From NCBI GenBank assembly GCA_900473045.1, contig UCKS01000004.1:62001-126000 (forward strand): DNA of 64,000 nucleotides. The letters are read 5' to 3'. This DNA is from Hyphomicrobiales bacterium. Its GTDB lineage: Bacteria; Pseudomonadota; Alphaproteobacteria; Rhizobiales; Rhizobiaceae. Made by a program: the position numbers and the translations under genes. Positions 1-6,756 of the stretch are shown here, piece by piece. Each line of letters begins with the position of its first letter. The stretch's first letter is position 1. The notes beneath the pieces were generated by a model. It was not told the origin of the DNA. It did no database searches and worked only from the letters and a program-made list of their open reading frames with translations.

Positions 1-92
1 CTGACCTGGACGACATGATTTTGACGGCTGTGTACCGGCGCGGGCTGGTGGACTTTGTTCTTGGACCGGTGCCCGATGACGCGCGCGAATAA
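1..92 (+). CDS. 3' end of an unidentified upstream gene of element 1
   Basis: Reading from base 3 there is an open frame of 29 codons ending in TAA at 90-92, including the stretch AVYRRGLVDFVLGPVPDD. It has no start in the window, so only a C-terminus is seen. Its stop overlaps the start of the next gene (ATG at 76), which fits the overlapping style of this operon. The family is not recognisable from this fragment. Confidence 0.5.
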   Translation, partial: DLDDMILTAVYRRGLVDFVLGPVPDDARE

Positions 93-645
93 TTTCGGTG
101 TCGCCGTCGCAGGCGGTGGGGATCAATCCAAGCGATCCGAGAACGATTTCTACGGTACGCCGCCCGAGCCGACCGAAGCAGTGTTACAACATTACATCGA
201 CGTTATTCCGCGCGTTGTGGCTGAACTGTCCTGTGGCAAGGGTCACATGTCCCGCGTGATCGCGGCGAACGGTTTCACGGTCCTGTCAGCCGATAAGTTC
301 CACCGTGGCTATGGATGGGGCGGGGTGGACTTCCTGACCCTGCCGGAACTGCCTTGCTGGCGTCGGATGGGGTTGATTATGAACCCGCCGTTCAACCTTG
401 CCGACGAGTTTATCAGCCAGGCGCACCGGCTCGGGTTTCCGTTCATCGCCATGTACCTGAAATCGACCTACTGGAACGCAGCGAAACGTTACGCGCTGTG
501 GGAACGATATCCACCGAAAGCGTGTCATCCGTTGACGTGGCGGGTCGATTTCACCGGGGGAGGAAACGCAACAATGGATTGCCAGTGGGTCATATGGGGC
601 GATATGGTGCCTGTATCAAATGAACCGTTACGGAGGCCGAAATGA
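76..645 (+). CDS. Phage-type DNA N-6-adenine methyltransferase-like protein
   Basis: A 189-residue protein. It has a SAM-binding-like segment ELSCGKGHMS (residues 50-59) and an NPPF motif (103-106), the catalytic (D/N)PP(Y/F) signature of amino-methyltransferases. The N-terminal NDFYGTPPEPTEAVL resembles the start of phage Dam-like enzymes, which recur in prophages without a restriction partner. An in-frame ATG lies at 55, but 76 is preferred because it gives a 17-nt overlap with the upstream gene and removes a non-conserved leader. It is likely to methylate element DNA. An alternative is a methyltransferase fold that acts on another nucleic-acid substrate. Its place in an operon with base-modification genes fits a DNA-protection role. 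Confidence 0.7.
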   Translation: MTRANNFGVAVAGGGDQSKRSENDFYGTPPEPTEAVLQHYIDVIPRVVAELSCGKGHMSRVIAANGFTVLSADKFHRGYGWGGVDFLTLPELPCWRRMGLIMNPPFNLADEFISQAHRLGFPFIAMYLKSTYWNAAKRYALWERYPPKACHPLTWRVDFTGGGNATMDCQWVIWGDMVPVSNEPLRRPK

Positions 646-812
646 AACGTCTCGTTATCATCGACGCGCCGGGAAACCGCACGGCGGCGCTTTTGGCGCT
701 ACTTGCGAAAACCCCTTCAGCACCCGTGGTTGTTGACGTCTTGAACGTCGGGTCACTCGACAACACTCCGAACCACATAGATCCGTCGAAGCGAGGATTT
801 CAACCGCGATGA
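642..812 (+). CDS. Small hypothetical protein (56 aa)
   Basis: ATG at 642 follows a good ribosome-binding site (GGAGG at 631-635) and overlaps the previous gene by 4 nt (ATGA). The stop overlaps the next ATG by 4 nt as well. The product begins MKRLVIIDAPGNRTAALLAL. It has a hydrophobic, beta-strand-like start followed by a helix, and no recognisable motif. The strict overlaps on both sides are the main reason for calling it. Confidence 0.6.
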   Translation: MKRLVIIDAPGNRTAALLALLAKTPSAPVVVDVLNVGSLDNTPNHIDPSKRGFQPR

Positions 813-1033
813 CCACCACACCACGATTCAAGTCATTCACAGGTGAGAAAAACGCTCATGCAGCCGTTGCCAAATCACCGGCCCGTGCGATCCGCTATGT
901 GACGCTACTGGAGGGTGTGACCCTTCGTGACGGTACACGGGCGATTCAGTACGTGCCGACGTTCAAGCCAGCAACGGAAGCTGAACGGGCGATCGTGGTC
1001 GCGGCAAGGTTCAGGTGTGCCGATGCTGAATAA
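809..1033 (+). CDS. Small hypothetical protein (74 aa)
   Basis: Starts with ATG overlapping the upstream stop (ATGA) and ends 11 nt inside the following gene. The protein is basic at its N-terminus and has one predicted beta-rich stretch (IRYVTLLEGVTLRDGTRAIQ). No family is recognised. Its place in the operon between the methyltransferase-like gene and the DUF1937 gene is the only functional hint. Confidence 0.55.
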   Translation: MTTTPRFKSFTGEKNAHAAVAKSPARAIRYVTLLEGVTLRDGTRAIQYVPTFKPATEAERAIVVAARFRCADAE

Positions 1034-1394
1034 GCTGAAAACGGAAAGCTTCTGGTATCTCGCTTCGCCTTACTCGCACGATGACGGCCGGGTGAGGGAC
1101 GCGCGGGCAATGGCTGTCAACGATTTCGCGGGGAACCTGTTGGCGCTCGGTGTGCACGTCTATTCCCCGATATGGGCGACCCACCGCGCGTGCATTAACT
1201 TCGAACTGCCGAAAGATCATCTGTTCTGGTTGGCGTTCAATAAGGATTTCATCGACCCGGCGTCGGGCGTGATCGTCTGCGATATCGACGGTTGGCGCGA
1301 ATCGAAGGGGTGTCAGCAAGAAATCGAGTACGCCCGCGATACCGGCAAACCCCTGTGGTTGTGCGACGATCGCTTGAACCTGAAGGCTCTGTGA
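1023..1394 (+). CDS. DUF1937 family protein, nucleoside 2-deoxyribosyltransferase-like
   Basis: A 123-residue protein with WYLASPYSHDD (residues 11-21) near the N-terminus and a DIDGWRESKGCQQE block (87-100). This pattern is typical of DUF1937 and related to the nucleoside 2-deoxyribosyltransferase fold, where the N-terminal strand and a later acidic residue form the base/sugar pocket. Family members occur often in phages and their substrate is generally unknown. An in-frame start upstream (927) would run through the preceding gene and is rejected. Because the next two genes handle 7-deazaguanine-type bases, a role in nucleotide or base exchange for DNA modification is a reasonable inference, not a demonstrated one. 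Confidence 0.75.
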   Translation: MLNKLKTESFWYLASPYSHDDGRVRDARAMAVNDFAGNLLALGVHVYSPIWATHRACINFELPKDHLFWLAFNKDFIDPASGVIVCDIDGWRESKGCQQEIEYARDTGKPLWLCDDRLNLKAL

Positions 1395-1405
1395 AAGGAA
1401 TGACT

Positions 1406-2026
1406 ATGAAATACTTTATTCTTGCTGCCTTTATGGCAACCATCCCCGCCGCAAACTGGCTGATAGGAAACGTCGGGACCGTCTGCATTCCGAACGGACC
1501 GTGCCTGTTACCGGTCGGGTTCGGTCTCACAGCTCCGAGCGGGGTTTTGATGGTCGGTCTTGCGCTCGTGTTGCGTGATGCTGTGCATGAACGTTTCGGG
1601 GCGTTAGTGGCAATCGTGGCAATTCTCGTCGGTGCCGTTCTGTCGGCTTTCTTTGCTGTGCCTGCGTTGGCCGTCGCATCAGCCGCGGCATTCCTCTTTT
1701 CTGAGCTTGCGGACCTAGTCGTATACGCCCCACTGCGAAAGCGTCGGCTGTACGTGGCGGTATTGTTATCAGGGATCGCCGGGGCAGTTGTCGATAGTGC
1801 CGCTTTCCTTCTCCTAGCGTTCGGTTCCTTGGATTTCATGAGCGGTCAAGTGGTCGGCAAATTGTGGATGACGATCGCCGCGCTCCCTGTAATTTGGATC
1901 ATCCGTAACCGCTGCCGTATCGGTTCACATGATTGGCGGACGTTCAAAGACTACGGCTATGGCTTTACCGAAAAGTGCAAGCGGTGCGGGGCGGTGGTCG
2001 ATCGCGGAACAACCATTGGGAATTAA
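1406..2026 (+). CDS. VUT/YhhQ family transporter (queuosine-precursor importer type) with C-terminal zinc-knuckle-like tail
   Basis: A 206-residue integral membrane protein with about five to six hydrophobic helices between residues 1 and 165. It carries VUT-family landmarks: LRDAVHERFG (56-65), FLFSELADLVVYAPLRKRR (97-115) and VDSAAFLLLAFGSLDF (129-144). YhhQ/QueT-type members import preQ0 or preQ1, precursors of queuosine and of phage 7-deazaguanine DNA bases. The ATG at 1406 is chosen because AAAGGA sits 7 nt ahead; ATG 1400 is possible. Residues 171-206 leave the membrane and contain CKRCG (191-195) plus H175, an unusual add-on for this family. The next gene is a DpdA-like transglycosylase, so import and use of the base appear coupled. 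Confidence 0.8.
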   Translation: MKYFILAAFMATIPAANWLIGNVGTVCIPNGPCLLPVGFGLTAPSGVLMVGLALVLRDAVHERFGALVAIVAILVGAVLSAFFAVPALAVASAAAFLFSELADLVVYAPLRKRRLYVAVLLSGIAGAVVDSAAFLLLAFGSLDFMSGQVVGKLWMTIAALPVIWIIRNRCRIGSHDWRTFKDYGYGFTEKCKRCGAVVDRGTTIGN

Positions 2027-2029
2027 CGC

Positions 2030-2758
2030 GTGACGATTCATTACCACGGTTTGCCGCTCACCCCTGAAGTGATGTTATTCGACCTTGCGGGACGAAACGT
2101 CTGCATTTCATATGCGACCAAGCGTACCGCTCAGGTCGAAATTGCGCTGCGTATCATGCAGTCGATCATGTTCGATAACGGGGCATTCACAGTGCACCAG
2201 CAAGGCGGGGAACTCGACATCCAAGCGTTCTATGCTTGGATTGCGCCGATGCTCGGTCATCCACATTGGGCGGTAGTGCCGGACAGGATCAACGGGACCG
2301 TTGCCGACCAGCGCGAATTGACAAAAACCTGGCCTTTCCCTCGTGATTTCGGTGCGCCGGTCTGGCATTTGCATTTGCCGATCGATTATTTATTAGAGTT
2401 GACTGATGAATGGCCGCGCGTTTGTCTCGGTTCAAGTCAAGAGTTTTGGAACGTTGGTTCTCCGGTTTGGCGTAAACGCATGGACGAGGTCGAAGAAGCC
2501 TTATTGAAGCACCGCAGGCATATGCCGTGGCTTCACGGTTTGCGGATGATGGCACAGATCGGGAAACGGCGTCTGCTTGCATCGGGCGACAGTGTGAACG
2601 TGGCGCGGAACTACAAAGACTATGAGGAAATGCCAAGCATGGTTGCGCACCGTATCGACCGGGTGAACAATCTAACCGCGCGACCGATCGAAACACCGGA
2701 AGACATGTTCAATCGTATGAGCAACGCCGCGCTCACGCATCGGAGCGCAGCCGCATGA
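2030..2758 (+). CDS. DpdA-like tRNA-guanine-transglycosylase-fold protein (probable 7-deazaguanine DNA transglycosylase)
   Basis: A 242-residue protein starting with GTG three bases after the transporter stop. Its motif order fits a TGT-type TIM barrel: FDNGAF (48-53, matching the substrate-binding DSGGF of TGT), VVPDRI (83-88), VCLGSS (131-136), LHGLRMM (168-174) and SGDSVNVARN (185-194). In the last motif D187 would be the nucleophilic aspartate. The C-terminal zinc-binding Cys3His site of bacterial tRNA TGT is absent, as in phage and island DpdA proteins that act on DNA. The likely reaction is exchange of guanine in DNA for preQ0 or a derivative. The assignment rests on motif order read by eye. 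Other TGT paralogs or an archaeosine-type activity are alternatives. Confidence 0.75.
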   Translation: MTIHYHGLPLTPEVMLFDLAGRNVCISYATKRTAQVEIALRIMQSIMFDNGAFTVHQQGGELDIQAFYAWIAPMLGHPHWAVVPDRINGTVADQRELTKTWPFPRDFGAPVWHLHLPIDYLLELTDEWPRVCLGSSQEFWNVGSPVWRKRMDEVEEALLKHRRHMPWLHGLRMMAQIGKRRLLASGDSVNVARNYKDYEEMPSMVAHRIDRVNNLTARPIETPEDMFNRMSNAALTHRSAAA

Positions 2759-5031
2759 GCATCTTCAGCCTGAAACAATTCGTCTGCTGGCAAGAGCTGC
2801 CGCCGATTCCGCCATCGACCAAGCCGCGTAAGGTTCCGCACGACCCGCGGACCGGCCGTCCGTGCGATCACCTCGATCCGGCCATGTGGATGACCCACGC
2901 CGAAGCCGTCGCGACCGGCTGGCCGATCGGGTTCGTTTTCACCGCTGCAGATCCGTATACGTTCTTCGACCTAGACGGTTGCCGCGATCCGGTGACGGGT
3001 ACATGGCACCCTGAAGCGCTCCGCATCGCTGGACTATTCCCCGGCGCGGCTATGGAGGTTTCTATCAGCGGCACCGGCCTGCATATCGTCGGGTATGGTG
3101 ACGCGCTTGCACTCGGTCCACGCAAACATAAATTTGGTACTGCGATTGTACCCGGCAATTGGTTGGAATTTTACACGGACCGGCGTTTTATGGCGCTCGG
3201 GCACGGGTTCAATGGTGATTTCAATCTCGATTGGACCTCTACACTTGCCGCGATTGTACCCGTATCGAGCGACCCCGCCGACGCGGTACCGTTCGTTGAT
3301 GTCACGGATCCGGCATGGAATGGACCGACCGACGATGACGAACTGATAAAAACCATGTGCGCGTCAAAGGGTGGTATCGGTGCTGCGTTCGGTGAAAGCG
3401 CAACTGTGGCGGACCTGTGGGAAGCACGGCCGGATATTCTCGGCAAGGTGTACCCATCAACCACAGGTGACGCGTTCGACCATTCCAGCGCCGACCAGGC
3501 ATTGTTTAACCATCTGGCGTTCTACACCGGCAAGAACACGGCCCGTATGGACCGGCTGTTCCGTCGCTCGGGGTTGATGCGTGAGAAGTACGACAAGCGC
3601 CCCGACTATCGCGCCGAAACCATGTCGAAGGCCGTCAGGTCCACCCGGAACGTCTACGCACGCCCTCGTCAGCTGACCGTACCGCTTGCCGTGCCAGGAA
3701 CCGCACCTGTGGCTGTGGCGGGCGACGGTCGGGAATTTGTCGGTATCGGTGATCTGCCGGACTATTTTAAAGGCTGCGTTTATGTCGAGCTTGACGAACG
3801 GGTGATGATTCCCGGTGGTCGGCTGCTGAAGAAAACGCAATTCGATGTGGTCTATGGTGGTCATCAGTTTGCCATGTCATTCGACGGCAGCAAACCGACG
3901 ATGTCCGCTTGGGAGGCTTTCACGGTCAACCGAGCCGTTCGGTTCCCCAAGGTGCAACGGACCTGTTTCAAGCCTATGTCGCCGTCAGGTGTGATCATTG
4001 GCGAAGCGGTCAACATATACCATTGCGAGGAAATCCGAACGCTGCAGGGCGACCCGGCACCGTTCCTCGACCTCTTGCGCCGATTGCTGCCGAACGCTCG
4101 AGACCGTGACATATTGCTGTCATGGATGGCGGCGCTCGTTCAGTATCAGGGAAAGAAATTCTTCTGGTCGCCGGTTCTCCAGGGAACCAAGGGCAACGGT
4201 AAATCGACCATAGGGGAGGTGCTGTCATACGCAATCGGGGACCGGTACTCATGGACCCCGGAAGCCGAATCGATCACCAAGCAATTCAACCCGTTTCTCG
4301 GGAACCGCATCTTTATCAACGTCGAAGAAATTCACATGTTCGAAAAGATGGAAATGCTGGAGAAGCTGAAAAACTACATCACCGGCAAGAAAGTCGAAAT
4401 CGAGAAAAAGGGTATCGACGCCGGAATGAACCGCGACTATTGCGCGAACTGGTTTTTCTGTACCAACCACAAGGACGCAATTATCAAGGAACGCGACGAC
4501 CGTCGTTTTTCCATCTTCTACACGGCGCAACAATCGCGGGAAGACATGGAACGCGACGGGATGCTGACGGACAACTACTTCCCGCACCTGTGGAATTGGC
4601 TGGAGACGGACGGTTTCGCGATCATGCGTCATTATCTGCTGAACTACTCGATACCGCCCGAATTCAACCCGGCAACGCAATGCATGATCGCCCCGCGCAC
4701 CTCCAGCACTGACGAGGCTGTGGCTTCATCGTACGGCGTGGCGGAACAATACATCCTGGAGGCGGTCGGCAGCGACGTTCAAGGATTCCGGGGCGGCTGG
4801 CTGTCATCGTGGGCCGTGACGAAACTGTTGCGCGACAACGGTCTGAAGCGCGCCCCACGGAAAATCGCTTCGATCTGTGAATCGCTCGGGTATATCGCGA
4901 CAGGGAAGGCGACGACCACGATCATGCAGGAAGAGAATTCACGACCCACATTGTACGCGCGGCCGGGTACGGTCATGGCGTATGATGTGGCACAGGGGTA
5001 TGTTTCCCCGGCTATGCGGGCGGTCAACTGA
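2755..5031 (+). CDS. Phage-type primase-helicase (N-terminal prim-pol-like, C-terminal SF3/D5-like helicase)
   Basis: A 758-residue protein overlapping the previous gene by 4 nt. The N-terminal ~300 residues show the archaeo-eukaryotic primase style: FFDLDGC (metal-binding acidic pair) and ISGTGLHIVGYG. This N-terminal layout recalls NrS-1-like phage primase-polymerases. The C-terminal half has a Walker A loop GTKGNGKST (477-485), a following NVEEIHMFEKMEMLEKL block resembling Walker B, and FFCTNHKDA (sensor-like). This matches phage DUF5906/D5-like helicases. A single protein could therefore prime and unwind element DNA. Downstream of it only one small plus-strand gene remains before the integrase. 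Confidence 0.85.
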   Translation: MSIFSLKQFVCWQELPPIPPSTKPRKVPHDPRTGRPCDHLDPAMWMTHAEAVATGWPIGFVFTAADPYTFFDLDGCRDPVTGTWHPEALRIAGLFPGAAMEVSISGTGLHIVGYGDALALGPRKHKFGTAIVPGNWLEFYTDRRFMALGHGFNGDFNLDWTSTLAAIVPVSSDPADAVPFVDVTDPAWNGPTDDDELIKTMCASKGGIGAAFGESATVADLWEARPDILGKVYPSTTGDAFDHSSADQALFNHLAFYTGKNTARMDRLFRRSGLMREKYDKRPDYRAETMSKAVRSTRNVYARPRQLTVPLAVPGTAPVAVAGDGREFVGIGDLPDYFKGCVYVELDERVMIPGGRLLKKTQFDVVYGGHQFAMSFDGSKPTMSAWEAFTVNRAVRFPKVQRTCFKPMSPSGVIIGEAVNIYHCEEIRTLQGDPAPFLDLLRRLLPNARDRDILLSWMAALVQYQGKKFFWSPVLQGTKGNGKSTIGEVLSYAIGDRYSWTPEAESITKQFNPFLGNRIFINVEEIHMFEKMEMLEKLKNYITGKKVEIEKKGIDAGMNRDYCANWFFCTNHKDAIIKERDDRRFSIFYTAQQSREDMERDGMLTDNYFPHLWNWLETDGFAIMRHYLLNYSIPPEFNPATQCMIAPRTSSTDEAVASSYGVAEQYILEAVGSDVQGFRGGWLSSWAVTKLLRDNGLKRAPRKIASICESLGYIATGKATTTIMQEENSRPTLYARPGTVMAYDVAQGYVSPAMRAVN

Positions 5032-5219
5032 TGTGGCGACTGTGGAAGATGCTCGGTTTTGAAATGTATCGAGTTTGCTACCGATTCCCGTCGCGTTCGG
5101 TGCCGGGACGGTTTGTTGAGGGTCGAAGCGAACCAATGTTCCGTTCAACTGCCGAATTCACAGTTGCATACGGCAATGTTCACTGGAGCGGGACGCACTG
5201 GATCGAGCCTGTTGGTTAG
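5031..5219 (+). CDS. Small hypothetical protein (62 aa)
   Basis: The ATG overlaps the primase-helicase stop by one base (TGATG), suggesting coupled translation. Basic product with a C-terminal AYGNVHWSGTHWIEPVG, no recognised family. It ends 4 nt inside the convergent integrase gene. Called on its position at the end of the operon; a chance frame cannot be excluded. Confidence 0.45.
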   Translation: MWRLWKMLGFEMYRVCYRFPSRSVPGRFVEGRSEPMFRSTAEFTVAYGNVHWSGTHWIEPVG

Positions 5220-6517
5220 TCGAATATCGACTTATCAAACGGCAACGCTATTCCCGCCATCTGTTCCGCGCGCCACGTCAGCGACCCGCCGTCGCCGTAT
5301 TCCGGCCGGTTCGTGTCGTGCCCGAGCGTGCGACGGCGGAACTCGTCGTCCATCCCGCCTTCAAGCATTCTTTTCTCGAAGCTGTGCCGCAACGAATAAA
5401 CCCGGTGGTTGACGGTCGGCAGTAATTCATTTTCCCGTAAGAACTTCATCGTTGCCGCTGAAAAGTTCCCCTCTTTGTCCAGGTACCGCGGAAAACCGTT
5501 CTTTGCCAGCTTCATCGCCTCCAGCGACACGCCGACCAACGGCACCTTGCGGATACTGTTTTCCGTCTTCAGTCGGCGGTCATCCACGAACGTGACCGAC
5601 AGGTACGGCACCGCGGCGTCAAGGTGGATATTCTCGGGGCGTATGTTGCACAGCTCGGATGGTCTGCAGCCAGTTTCCACCATAGCCAGGAAGATCAAGC
5701 GCGCCTCACGATTCAGGCCGCGCAACGCTTCACCCTTCAGGAACTTGTCGCGGATATAGGCTGTTTCGAACGGGGGAACGATTTTCCGGTGCCGCTTCGG
5801 ATCCGCATAGGACAGCTTTTCGAACGGGTTCTGCGTGTCGATCTGCATATATTTCGTATACTCGCGGAACAGCTTGCGCATGTTCCCGAACTGCCGGTTA
5901 GCTGTGTTCCCCGACAGATCACGAGACTTCACCCGGTCCAGATAATGCCGGTGGAACTTATGGGCGTCGTCGCGGGTGATATCGAGCAACGCCTTATCCC
6001 CGACGATCGTGCAAAACTGTTCGACGGCGTTCGATTTGATTTCGCCCCATTTACGGATTTGCGTTTCGCTCATCCCCTGCAGTTCGTCGGCCGCTATCTC
6101 TTCACTGTAGAGGGTCAGGACTTGCCGCACGGTCAGCCGTGGTTCATCCGCCCCACCAAGAGCGGCTATCTCGTCACGCGGTGCCGCTGCAGCTGCTGTG
6201 ATCCGTCGTATGATTTCCTCAACTGTGGATGATGCGGCGATATCGGCAGCGGCCTTGTATTCGAACCCGAGAGCGATGGCCCGAGCCTTTGCCGCGGCGT
6301 ATTGAGCATGGGACGCTTGCGCCTGGTCATTGATCGCCAGACCTTGCCAGAACAGATCATCCGCCCGTTCCAGCGCGTCCCGTCGAAGCTTCGCCACGTC
6401 CACAGATGACGTCTTGAGCGATACGCGGATAGTTCCCCGACCGTCCAGCAAGGCGAAGTGACCGGGCACGCGCCGGACATAGCTCCATTTCGACCCGCGC
6501 GCCATCAGGTACCGCAT
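5216..6517 (-). CDS. int: Tyrosine recombinase / phage integrase of element 1
   Basis: About 433 residues from the ATG at 6517. A GTG at 6589 would add 24 residues but neither start has a clear Shine-Dalgarno. The N-terminal MRYLMARGSKWSYVRRVPG is the SAM-like arm-binding start common in alphaproteobacterial integrases. Catalytic landmarks are VETGCRPSELCNI (first Arg), KTENSIRKVPL (Lys), YSLRHSFEKRM (box II, with Tyr in place of the usual first His), LGHDTNRPEYGDG (His and the nucleophilic Tyr). It should integrate and excise the element at the neighbouring tRNA-Leu. Only ~155 nt separate it from the tRNA, the expected arrangement. Confidence 0.95.
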   Translation of the reverse strand: MRYLMARGSKWSYVRRVPGHFALLDGRGTIRVSLKTSSVDVAKLRRDALERADDLFWQGLAINDQAQASHAQYAAAKARAIALGFEYKAAADIAASSTVEEIIRRITAAAAAPRDEIAALGGADEPRLTVRQVLTLYSEEIAADELQGMSETQIRKWGEIKSNAVEQFCTIVGDKALLDITRDDAHKFHRHYLDRVKSRDLSGNTANRQFGNMRKLFREYTKYMQIDTQNPFEKLSYADPKRHRKIVPPFETAYIRDKFLKGEALRGLNREARLIFLAMVETGCRPSELCNIRPENIHLDAAVPYLSVTFVDDRRLKTENSIRKVPLVGVSLEAMKLAKNGFPRYLDKEGNFSAATMKFLRENELLPTVNHRVYSLRHSFEKRMLEGGMDDEFRRRTLGHDTNRPEYGDGGSLTWRAEQMAGIALPFDKSIFD

Positions 6518-6671
6518 GGGGTCAAGCTTCGGTTGGGTGATTCGCAATTCGCACCTTATTTCGTTGGTTTGTATCGCGATTTGTTGCACAAAACGAAGGA
6601 AGATGTCAATAATGCGAAATTTTGCGTTGTAATTTATGTAATTAAATCAAATACTTATGGTGTAAATCTGT

Positions 6672-6700
6672 TGGTGCGGACGACGGGGGTCGAACCCGTA
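6672..6700. other. Probable attachment site of element 1 (3' end of tRNA-Leu)
   Basis: Inferred. The integrase gene lies directly beyond the tRNA 3' end, and elements of this type recombine inside the T arm/acceptor region so that the tRNA stays intact. The exact core cannot be set because the second copy is left of the window. The 80 bp between integrase and tRNA are AT-rich and contain a near-palindrome (GCGAAATTTTGCG, about 6615-6630), possibly an arm-type or excisionase site. Confidence 0.6.
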
Positions 6701-6756
6701 CAGATCTCTCCGAGGGATTTTAAGTCCCTTGCGTCTACCAGTTTCGCCACGTCCGC
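6672..6756 (-). tRNA. tRNA-Leu (anticodon UAA)
   Basis: On the minus strand the sequence folds as a class II tRNA: acceptor GCGGACG pairs with CGTCCGC, CCA is encoded (6672-6674), the T arm contains GGGTTCGACCCCC, and the anticodon loop CTTAAAA gives UAA. A TTGACC box about 30 nt upstream could be the -35 of its promoter. Its 3' end faces the integrase of element 1. Confidence 0.95.

Follow-up and report, generated by a model that had tools for sequence, protein, structure and literature searches.

What might a phage gain from carrying a membrane transporter gene beside a small gene of the transglycosylase kind? The question is raised by a 64,000-nucleotide stretch of DNA from a Hyphomicrobiales bacterium (contig UCKS01000004.1; G000:C50:62001-126000 of the 6.78-Mb genome; hereafter the window) that opens, over 6.7 kb, with the right end of a prophage. 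There, a gene for a VUT/COG1738-type membrane transporter (1406..2026, + strand) directly precedes one for a small DpdA-like transglycosylase (2030..2758, + strand). We propose that the pair probably serves a temperate tailed phage as a module for precursor supply and insertion, importing a 7-deazaguanine base and placing it in DNA. What goes beyond the known enzyme family is its tight, recurrent pairing with the predicted importer, together with an excess, in the same genomes, of Dpd islands (dpdA-K), bacterial systems that likewise put 7-deazaguanine in DNA, the host's own included. Published work is cited below from excerpts of the papers.

Identity of the two proteins

The transporter frame runs from an ATG at 1406 to a TAA ending at 2026 and is separated by three bases (CGC) from the enzyme frame, which extends from a GTG at 2030 to 2758; a preliminary description of this DNA had placed both genes at exactly these positions. 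The GTG start is sound because most aligned relatives share this start position and open with MT(I/L)HYHG.

The assignment of the first gene to the VUT family was borne out by Pfam Vut_1 (PF02592; E value 3.4e-11, 44.2 bits against a cut-off of 27.2) and by the PHROGs family phrog_4899 (5e-35). The product falls under the curated cut-offs of the models for queuosine precursor transporters (TIGR00697, 40.5 against 50.95 bits; YhhQ, NF008406, 27.3 against 252 bits). Its predicted cargo, preQ0 (7-cyano-7-deazaguanine), preQ1 (7-aminomethyl-7-deazaguanine) or a related 7-deazaguanine base, is suggested by its family and by the gene linkage presented below. The protein ends in a tail of about 36 residues (1916-2023) with a C-x2-C pair, which is absent from the six relatives aligned beside it and weakly resembles small phage families; close metagenomic relatives of 205-218 residues cover 96-100% of the query, and some of them probably have the tail too.

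The enzyme matches phrog_887, 'queuine tRNA-ribosyltransferase' (1.3e-37, residues 1-195). It has no match in Pfam or NCBIfam, hence none to the Pfam family of tRNA-guanine transglycosylases (TGT; PF01702), and none in PADLOC, whose models include the DpdA of bacterial islands; its identification as a bacterial-type DpdA or a tRNA-TGT was rejected on these grounds. D49, D85, G134, H169 and D187 are invariant in 18/18 and in 50/50 aligned sequences and follow the TGT order D..GAF, D, G, H, D, and we assume for them the catalytic and binding roles of TGT chemistry. The motif order proposed in the preliminary description thus holds except for G170, which is in neither list of invariant residues. 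The C-x-C-x2-C/H zinc site of tRNA-TGT is indeed absent from the sequence, but this is no hallmark of DpdA: the bacterial DpdA family found in the host keeps a Cys/His site (C383, C385, C388 and H410) in 13/13 sequences.

In structural comparisons of the enzyme model (predicted local distance difference test score, 91.2), TGTs occupy most of the top rows of VIA-align, and Foldseek returned no match at all at an E value of 0.001 or better. Searches of the Protein Data Bank by sequence, with the single enzyme and with a 50-row profile, also returned no TGT. Placement in the TGT superfamily, as first described, agrees with phrog_887 and with the model, although profile-profile comparison supported it weakly and comparison with tRNA-TGT was unproductive. 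A region of Pantoea phage MED16 corresponding to gp38 is 37.7% identical to the enzyme over 86% of the query (tblastn). By these matches, the invariant residues and the MED16 relative, the enzyme is a further member of a known phage TGT-like family; its predicted activity is to put the imported base into DNA in exchange for guanine.

Linkage of transporter and enzyme across phages and genomes

Loci were fetched with a profile of the enzyme alone. On the viral side, 557 of 600 stretches were confirmed, and the best 80 were used, some of which are near-copies; the genome loci number 63. A viral scan with the single enzyme sequence had yielded two loci only. Transporters were then scored with a profile of VUT that started from five seed sequences and was widened by its own matches. 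A same-strand VUT gene lies within 1.5 kb of the enzyme gene in 63/80 viral loci (50 downstream, 13 upstream) and in 14/63 genome loci (12 downstream, 2 upstream). The rest of the fetched loci, about 554 kb of viral and 677 kb of genome sequence, contains no match to the VUT profile. Since VUT adjoins the enzyme in 63 of the 80 viral loci and occurs nowhere else in them, the pairing is not due to chance.

The reciprocal search, from the window VUT alone, found 16 viral loci, 14 of which have the enzyme adjoining. Of the remaining two, one is truncated by a contig edge and the other, L245, has a same-strand phrog_15826 protein about 0.4 kb away. This protein (L245:6874-7557) looks TGT-like by eye (D-N-G-C-F, P-D, G-G, D-S) and phrog_15826 also matches the small DpdA weakly; it may represent another transglycosylase family. 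In Sinorhizobium phage phiLM21, an isolate (L258:4123-5474), the VUT gene overlaps and follows a phrog_1279 queuine tRNA-ribosyltransferase gene annotated as hypothetical.

Among named phages, tblastn found the enzyme in 102 records, of which 60 were listed. Three of the four best matches have a VUT gene nearby, no more than about 1 kb from that of the enzyme: Rhizobium phage RHph_X2_30, the closest among the matches listed (enzyme 70% and VUT 71% identical), Rhizobium phage RHph_N3_2 (41% and 73%) and Pseudanabaena phage Pam5 (41% and 57%). Their gene order differs from that of the prophage, with VUT downstream in RHph_N3_2 and Pam5 and two small genes between the pair in RHph_X2_30; a literature search found no modification data for the three. 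No VUT is annotated in the stretch examined of the fourth, Mae-JY30, or near the enzyme gene of Vibrio phage D309, and in Caulobacter phage DMCA a QueD gene takes the place of VUT beside the enzyme. As in the prophage, an annotated VUT stands directly before the DpdA-like gene in Escherichia coli phage vB_EcoD_Opt-719 and Flyfo siphovirus Tbat1_6; their enzymes are 32-34% identical to that of the window, and their VUTs are of another lineage, not found by the search with the window VUT.

In a tree of 96 VUTs, the window protein groups with those of rhizobial phages, the branches between VUT lineages are very long, and two further deep lineages likewise adjoin the enzyme. When the type of VUT is mapped on a quickly built tree of 151 enzymes, it changes 22 times, against 71 times with shuffled labels. 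Read together, the trees indicate that the module of VUT and small DpdA has been assembled repeatedly. We found no account of this linkage, or of the co-occurrence with Dpd islands described below, in a literature search of titles and abstract starts, and we claim no priority for either.

Supply of the base

The gene content of the loci suggests how the enzyme would be provided with its base. Across the 143 viral and genome loci, queD lies beside the enzyme in 7/66 loci without VUT (L069, L080, L091, L118, L133, L137 and L153, with queE as well in L080 and L118) against 0/77 with VUT, as would follow if the base is supplied either by import or by synthesis. In a run of this exclusion test without L079, the genome of that locus was counted on the VUT-less side. 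A weak QueC-like match accompanies VUT in one locus, L123.

Within the genomes, queC was found above the cut-off in 54/61. It is absent from 5/14 VUT-bearing genomes against 2/46 others (p 0.006); if only queC genes outside Dpd islands are counted, it is missing from 7/14 against 2/46 (p 0.0002). This association is suggestive only, because, of the five VUT-bearing genomes that lack queC, four are metagenome-assembled and just one, that of Rhizobium subbaraonis, comes from an isolate.

The host of the prophage has a full-length tRNA TGT and two queC genes above the curated cut-off, and its Dpd island adds queD and queE, so that a preQ0 pathway is present, as the preliminary description required. 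Searches of the prophage with the island QueC, QueD, QueE, DpdA, DpdB and DpdC gave no match; the island VUT alone matches. With no relatives of the island's precursor-synthesis genes in the prophage, the sources of the base would be the surroundings of the cell and the host pathway, which comprises the genes for tRNA queuosine and the Dpd island.

Dpd islands in the host and in other genomes

The host island, which the preliminary description had missed, is a Dpd modification-restriction island on contig C111 (G000:C111:96513-123056; L024, L020). PADLOC identified DpdA (1.3e-167), two DpdB (4.7e-122 and 1.6e-130), DpdC (4.1e-96) and QueC; the restriction genes are represented by strong matches to DpdF, DpdH and DpdJ and a weak one to DpdG, while DpdD, DpdE, DpdI and DpdK were not found among the 16 host open reading frames (ORFs) scanned. 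Frames beside queC were read by eye as QueD and QueE, and the gene that follows queC encodes a VUT 65% identical to that of the prophage. The suspicion that the host DpdJ is damaged was dropped: the half gene came from an ORF list ending at the locus edge, and the contiguous contig shows a single open segment of 2104 residues. The island further holds a DndB-family gene and a PD-(D/E)XK protein adjoining DpdJ.

VUT genes are present in 9/16 fetched Dpd-island loci; a YhhQ-type transporter has been reported in about 9% of Dpd islands (PMC11888242) and is therefore not new there. In the tree of 96 VUTs, 8/9 island VUTs form one clade (100/92) within the lineage of the window VUT. YhhQ pairs with the other VUT of the host (100/99), apart from the window and island proteins.

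Whether phage enzyme and islands co-occur was examined on the 63 genome loci, because a sample of genomes of the same order contained the phage enzyme in the host genome alone (1/397). The loci represent 60 genomes, two pairs of loci sharing a genome and L086 being left out. Bacterial DpdA was counted only at E values below 1e-100. Weaker matches to its model (E 5e-9 or worse), found in 48 of the 51 matching order genomes and in 14 of the 24 matching among 49 phage-enzyme genomes, are nearly all short and near model positions 130-265, and were taken for cross-matches of tRNA-TGT.

Strong DpdA was found in 11/60 phage-enzyme genomes (10/49 and 1/11 further ones). With the host genome left out, it was found in 2/396 genomes of the order, 2/397 of the phylum and 6/345 of the family sample (Fisher p 5e-9 against order and against phylum, in samples not matched for prophage carriage or genome size). 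Within Rhizobiaceae the counts are 2/4 with the phage enzyme against 4/342 (Fisher p 0.0015). The three samples partly overlap, and two genomes of the family sample, G975 and G851, have coordinates identical to those of L055 and L058, and thus are the genomes that contain these loci. In the ten genomes checked, the phage-enzyme locus and the Dpd island lie on different contigs or 2.8 Mb apart.

Prophage and neighbouring genes

That the pair belongs to an integrated element, as had been supposed, is established by the ends of the element. The window begins inside the right end of a 47-kb prophage (1..6693), lower in G+C than its flanks, which closes with a 22-bp attachment repeat (6672..6693) formed by the 3' end of a tRNA-Leu(TAA) gene (6672-6756, - strand). 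An identical copy lies 47.2 kb to the left, outside the window (G000:C50:21436-21457), giving an element of about 47.3 kb. Between the copies are genes for large and small terminase, portal, head protease, tail fibre, endolysin, DNA polymerase, exonuclease and helicase, and beside the tRNA is a tyrosine integrase (5216..6589, - strand; phrog_1 integrase, 5e-31).

A phage primase/helicase (2755..5031, + strand; phrog_1829 DNA primase, 3.2e-123) lies directly downstream of the pair, as context and not as part of the module. Upstream are a methyltransferase-like gene (55-645; phrog_799, no Pfam match), a 74-residue frame (809-1033) and a DUF1937 gene (1005-1394; Pfam DUF1937, 1.6e-15). Single-sequence searches of the 80 viral loci found the methyltransferase-like gene in 1, the primase in 2, and the 74-residue frame, the DUF1937 gene and the integrase in 0. 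The methyltransferase-like and DUF1937 genes, which the preliminary description had linked to the pair, were rejected as parts of the system on these counts. The DUF1937 protein is related to nucleoside 2-deoxyribosyltransferases and has no linkage with the module.

Comparison with known systems

The closest parallels are phages with DpdA only ('group 3', or singleton), such as MED16 and Salmonella phage 7-11, described as having a small TGT-like DpdA and no preQ0 synthesis genes, the precursor being expected from host or environment (PMC8306585, PMC6884629). In MED16, for which no preQ0 synthesis genes were found, 2'-deoxy-7-amido-7-deazaguanosine (dADG) makes up about 0.13% of G in the DNA, and the restriction enzymes tried on it were not noticeably affected (PMC8306585); dADG is 0.02% of G in 7-11, and Orion has no modified G (PMC6884629). 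The excerpts report no transporter for MED16 and 7-11, whereas the prophage has VUT directly upstream; their DNA chemistry was measured, whereas the prophage is known from its genes alone. In a 2019 survey, phages with DpdA alone formed the largest group among those predicted to carry 7-deazaguanines, and their modification status was called hard to predict (PMC6884629).

Seuratvirus-type phages such as EC151 combine a preQ0 transporter with dpdA, as here, but also encode folE, queD, queC and queE, so that import adds to synthesis (PMC8310023). Bacterial DpdA is a protein of about 455 residues with a Cys/His site and the partners DpdB and DpdC, whereas the prophage enzyme has no counterpart among the DpdA models of PADLOC. 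E. coli YhhQ, for which preQ0 transport is backed by genetics (PMC5372724), shares its Pfam family with the window VUT, from which it is deeply separated, and groups with the second VUT of the host.

Discussion

The reading that best accounts for the pair begins with VUT taking up a 7-deazaguanine base, which is most likely preQ0; the small DpdA-like enzyme would then swap it for guanine in DNA and so mark the DNA of the phage. Substrate and direction of transport, action on DNA, the form of the mark (presumably dPreQ0, the deoxynucleoside of preQ0, or dADG as in MED16) and any benefit to the phage are deduced from family, linkage and comparison. The minimal pathway of the preliminary description is upheld in that the pair is present, the prophage has no match to the synthesis proteins of the island and the host has preQ0 genes; its suggestion that the mark shields DNA from restriction is harder to reconcile with the sparse and apparently ineffective dADG of MED16.

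A tentative extension of this explanation is counter-defence by a forged self-mark: the enzyme would insert preQ0, DpdC of the host or another activity would convert it to dADG, and Dpd restriction would read the phage as self. In favour of it, the host has DpdA, two DpdB, DpdC, DpdF, DpdH, DpdJ, a weak DpdG, QueC, QueD, QueE and a VUT of its own, related to that of the prophage and within the same lineage as nearly all island VUTs. The excess of strong DpdA in phage-enzyme genomes fits this idea, as does the distance between phage locus and island, and the sparse mark of MED16 and 7-11, dADG, is a known product of bacterial Dpd islands (PMC11888242). Several points weigh against it. No strong-DpdA island was found in 49/60 phage-enzyme genomes, and VUT-bearing genomes are not clearly richer in islands than the others (5/14 against 6/46, p 0.11). 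The comparison samples were, moreover, unmatched, and Dpd islands could simply be a source of preQ0 or favour modified phages of any kind. Whatever its purpose, a 7-deazaguanine mark has a cost, because the bacterial system GrwAB restricts phages so marked (PMC12137116).

A general shield, in which bulk replacement of guanine would guard phage DNA from ordinary restriction enzymes, seems doubtful. It has its precedent in CAjan and other full-pathway phages, which carry about 30% modified G and are protected from restriction enzymes (Hutinet et al. 2019, PMC6884629); the levels measured in DpdA-only phages, from 0.13% down to none, and the lack of a noticeable effect in MED16 speak against it. 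Import could raise the level of modification, since the excerpts report no transporter for MED16, 7-11 or Orion.

It is improbable that the pair serves tRNA queuosine or another nucleic acid of the host, with the enzyme as a tRNA or other transglycosylase and VUT improving precursor salvage. PHROGs names phrog_887 and phrog_1279 queuine tRNA-ribosyltransferase, and phages with queuosine genes only have been proposed to boost host queuosine (PMC6884629), but the host already has a full-length TGT, the enzyme has neither the zinc site nor a Pfam TGT match, and MED16, which encodes a relative, has modified DNA. That unrelated accessory genes happen to adjoin, as the free shuffling of such genes in phages and the unlinked neighbours in the window might suggest, is refuted for this pair by its adjacency in 63/80 loci with no VUT elsewhere in them and by the reciprocal 14/16.

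A module that imports and inserts a 7-deazaguanine base thus probably explains the pair, and its recurrence across phages would give those with DpdA only a concrete route to the base. Why a sparse mark is placed at all could then have a concrete and testable reason in the excess of Dpd islands among their hosts. Speculatively, VUT and small DpdA may be a phage counter-measure, widespread and assembled more than once, that imitates the Dpd self-mark, the phage's own importer letting it write the mark where host precursor is scarce, and lysogens would for this reason be in excess among Dpd-positive bacteria. Because the present host holds both the prophage pair and a Dpd island, the forging of the mark could be tested in a single organism.
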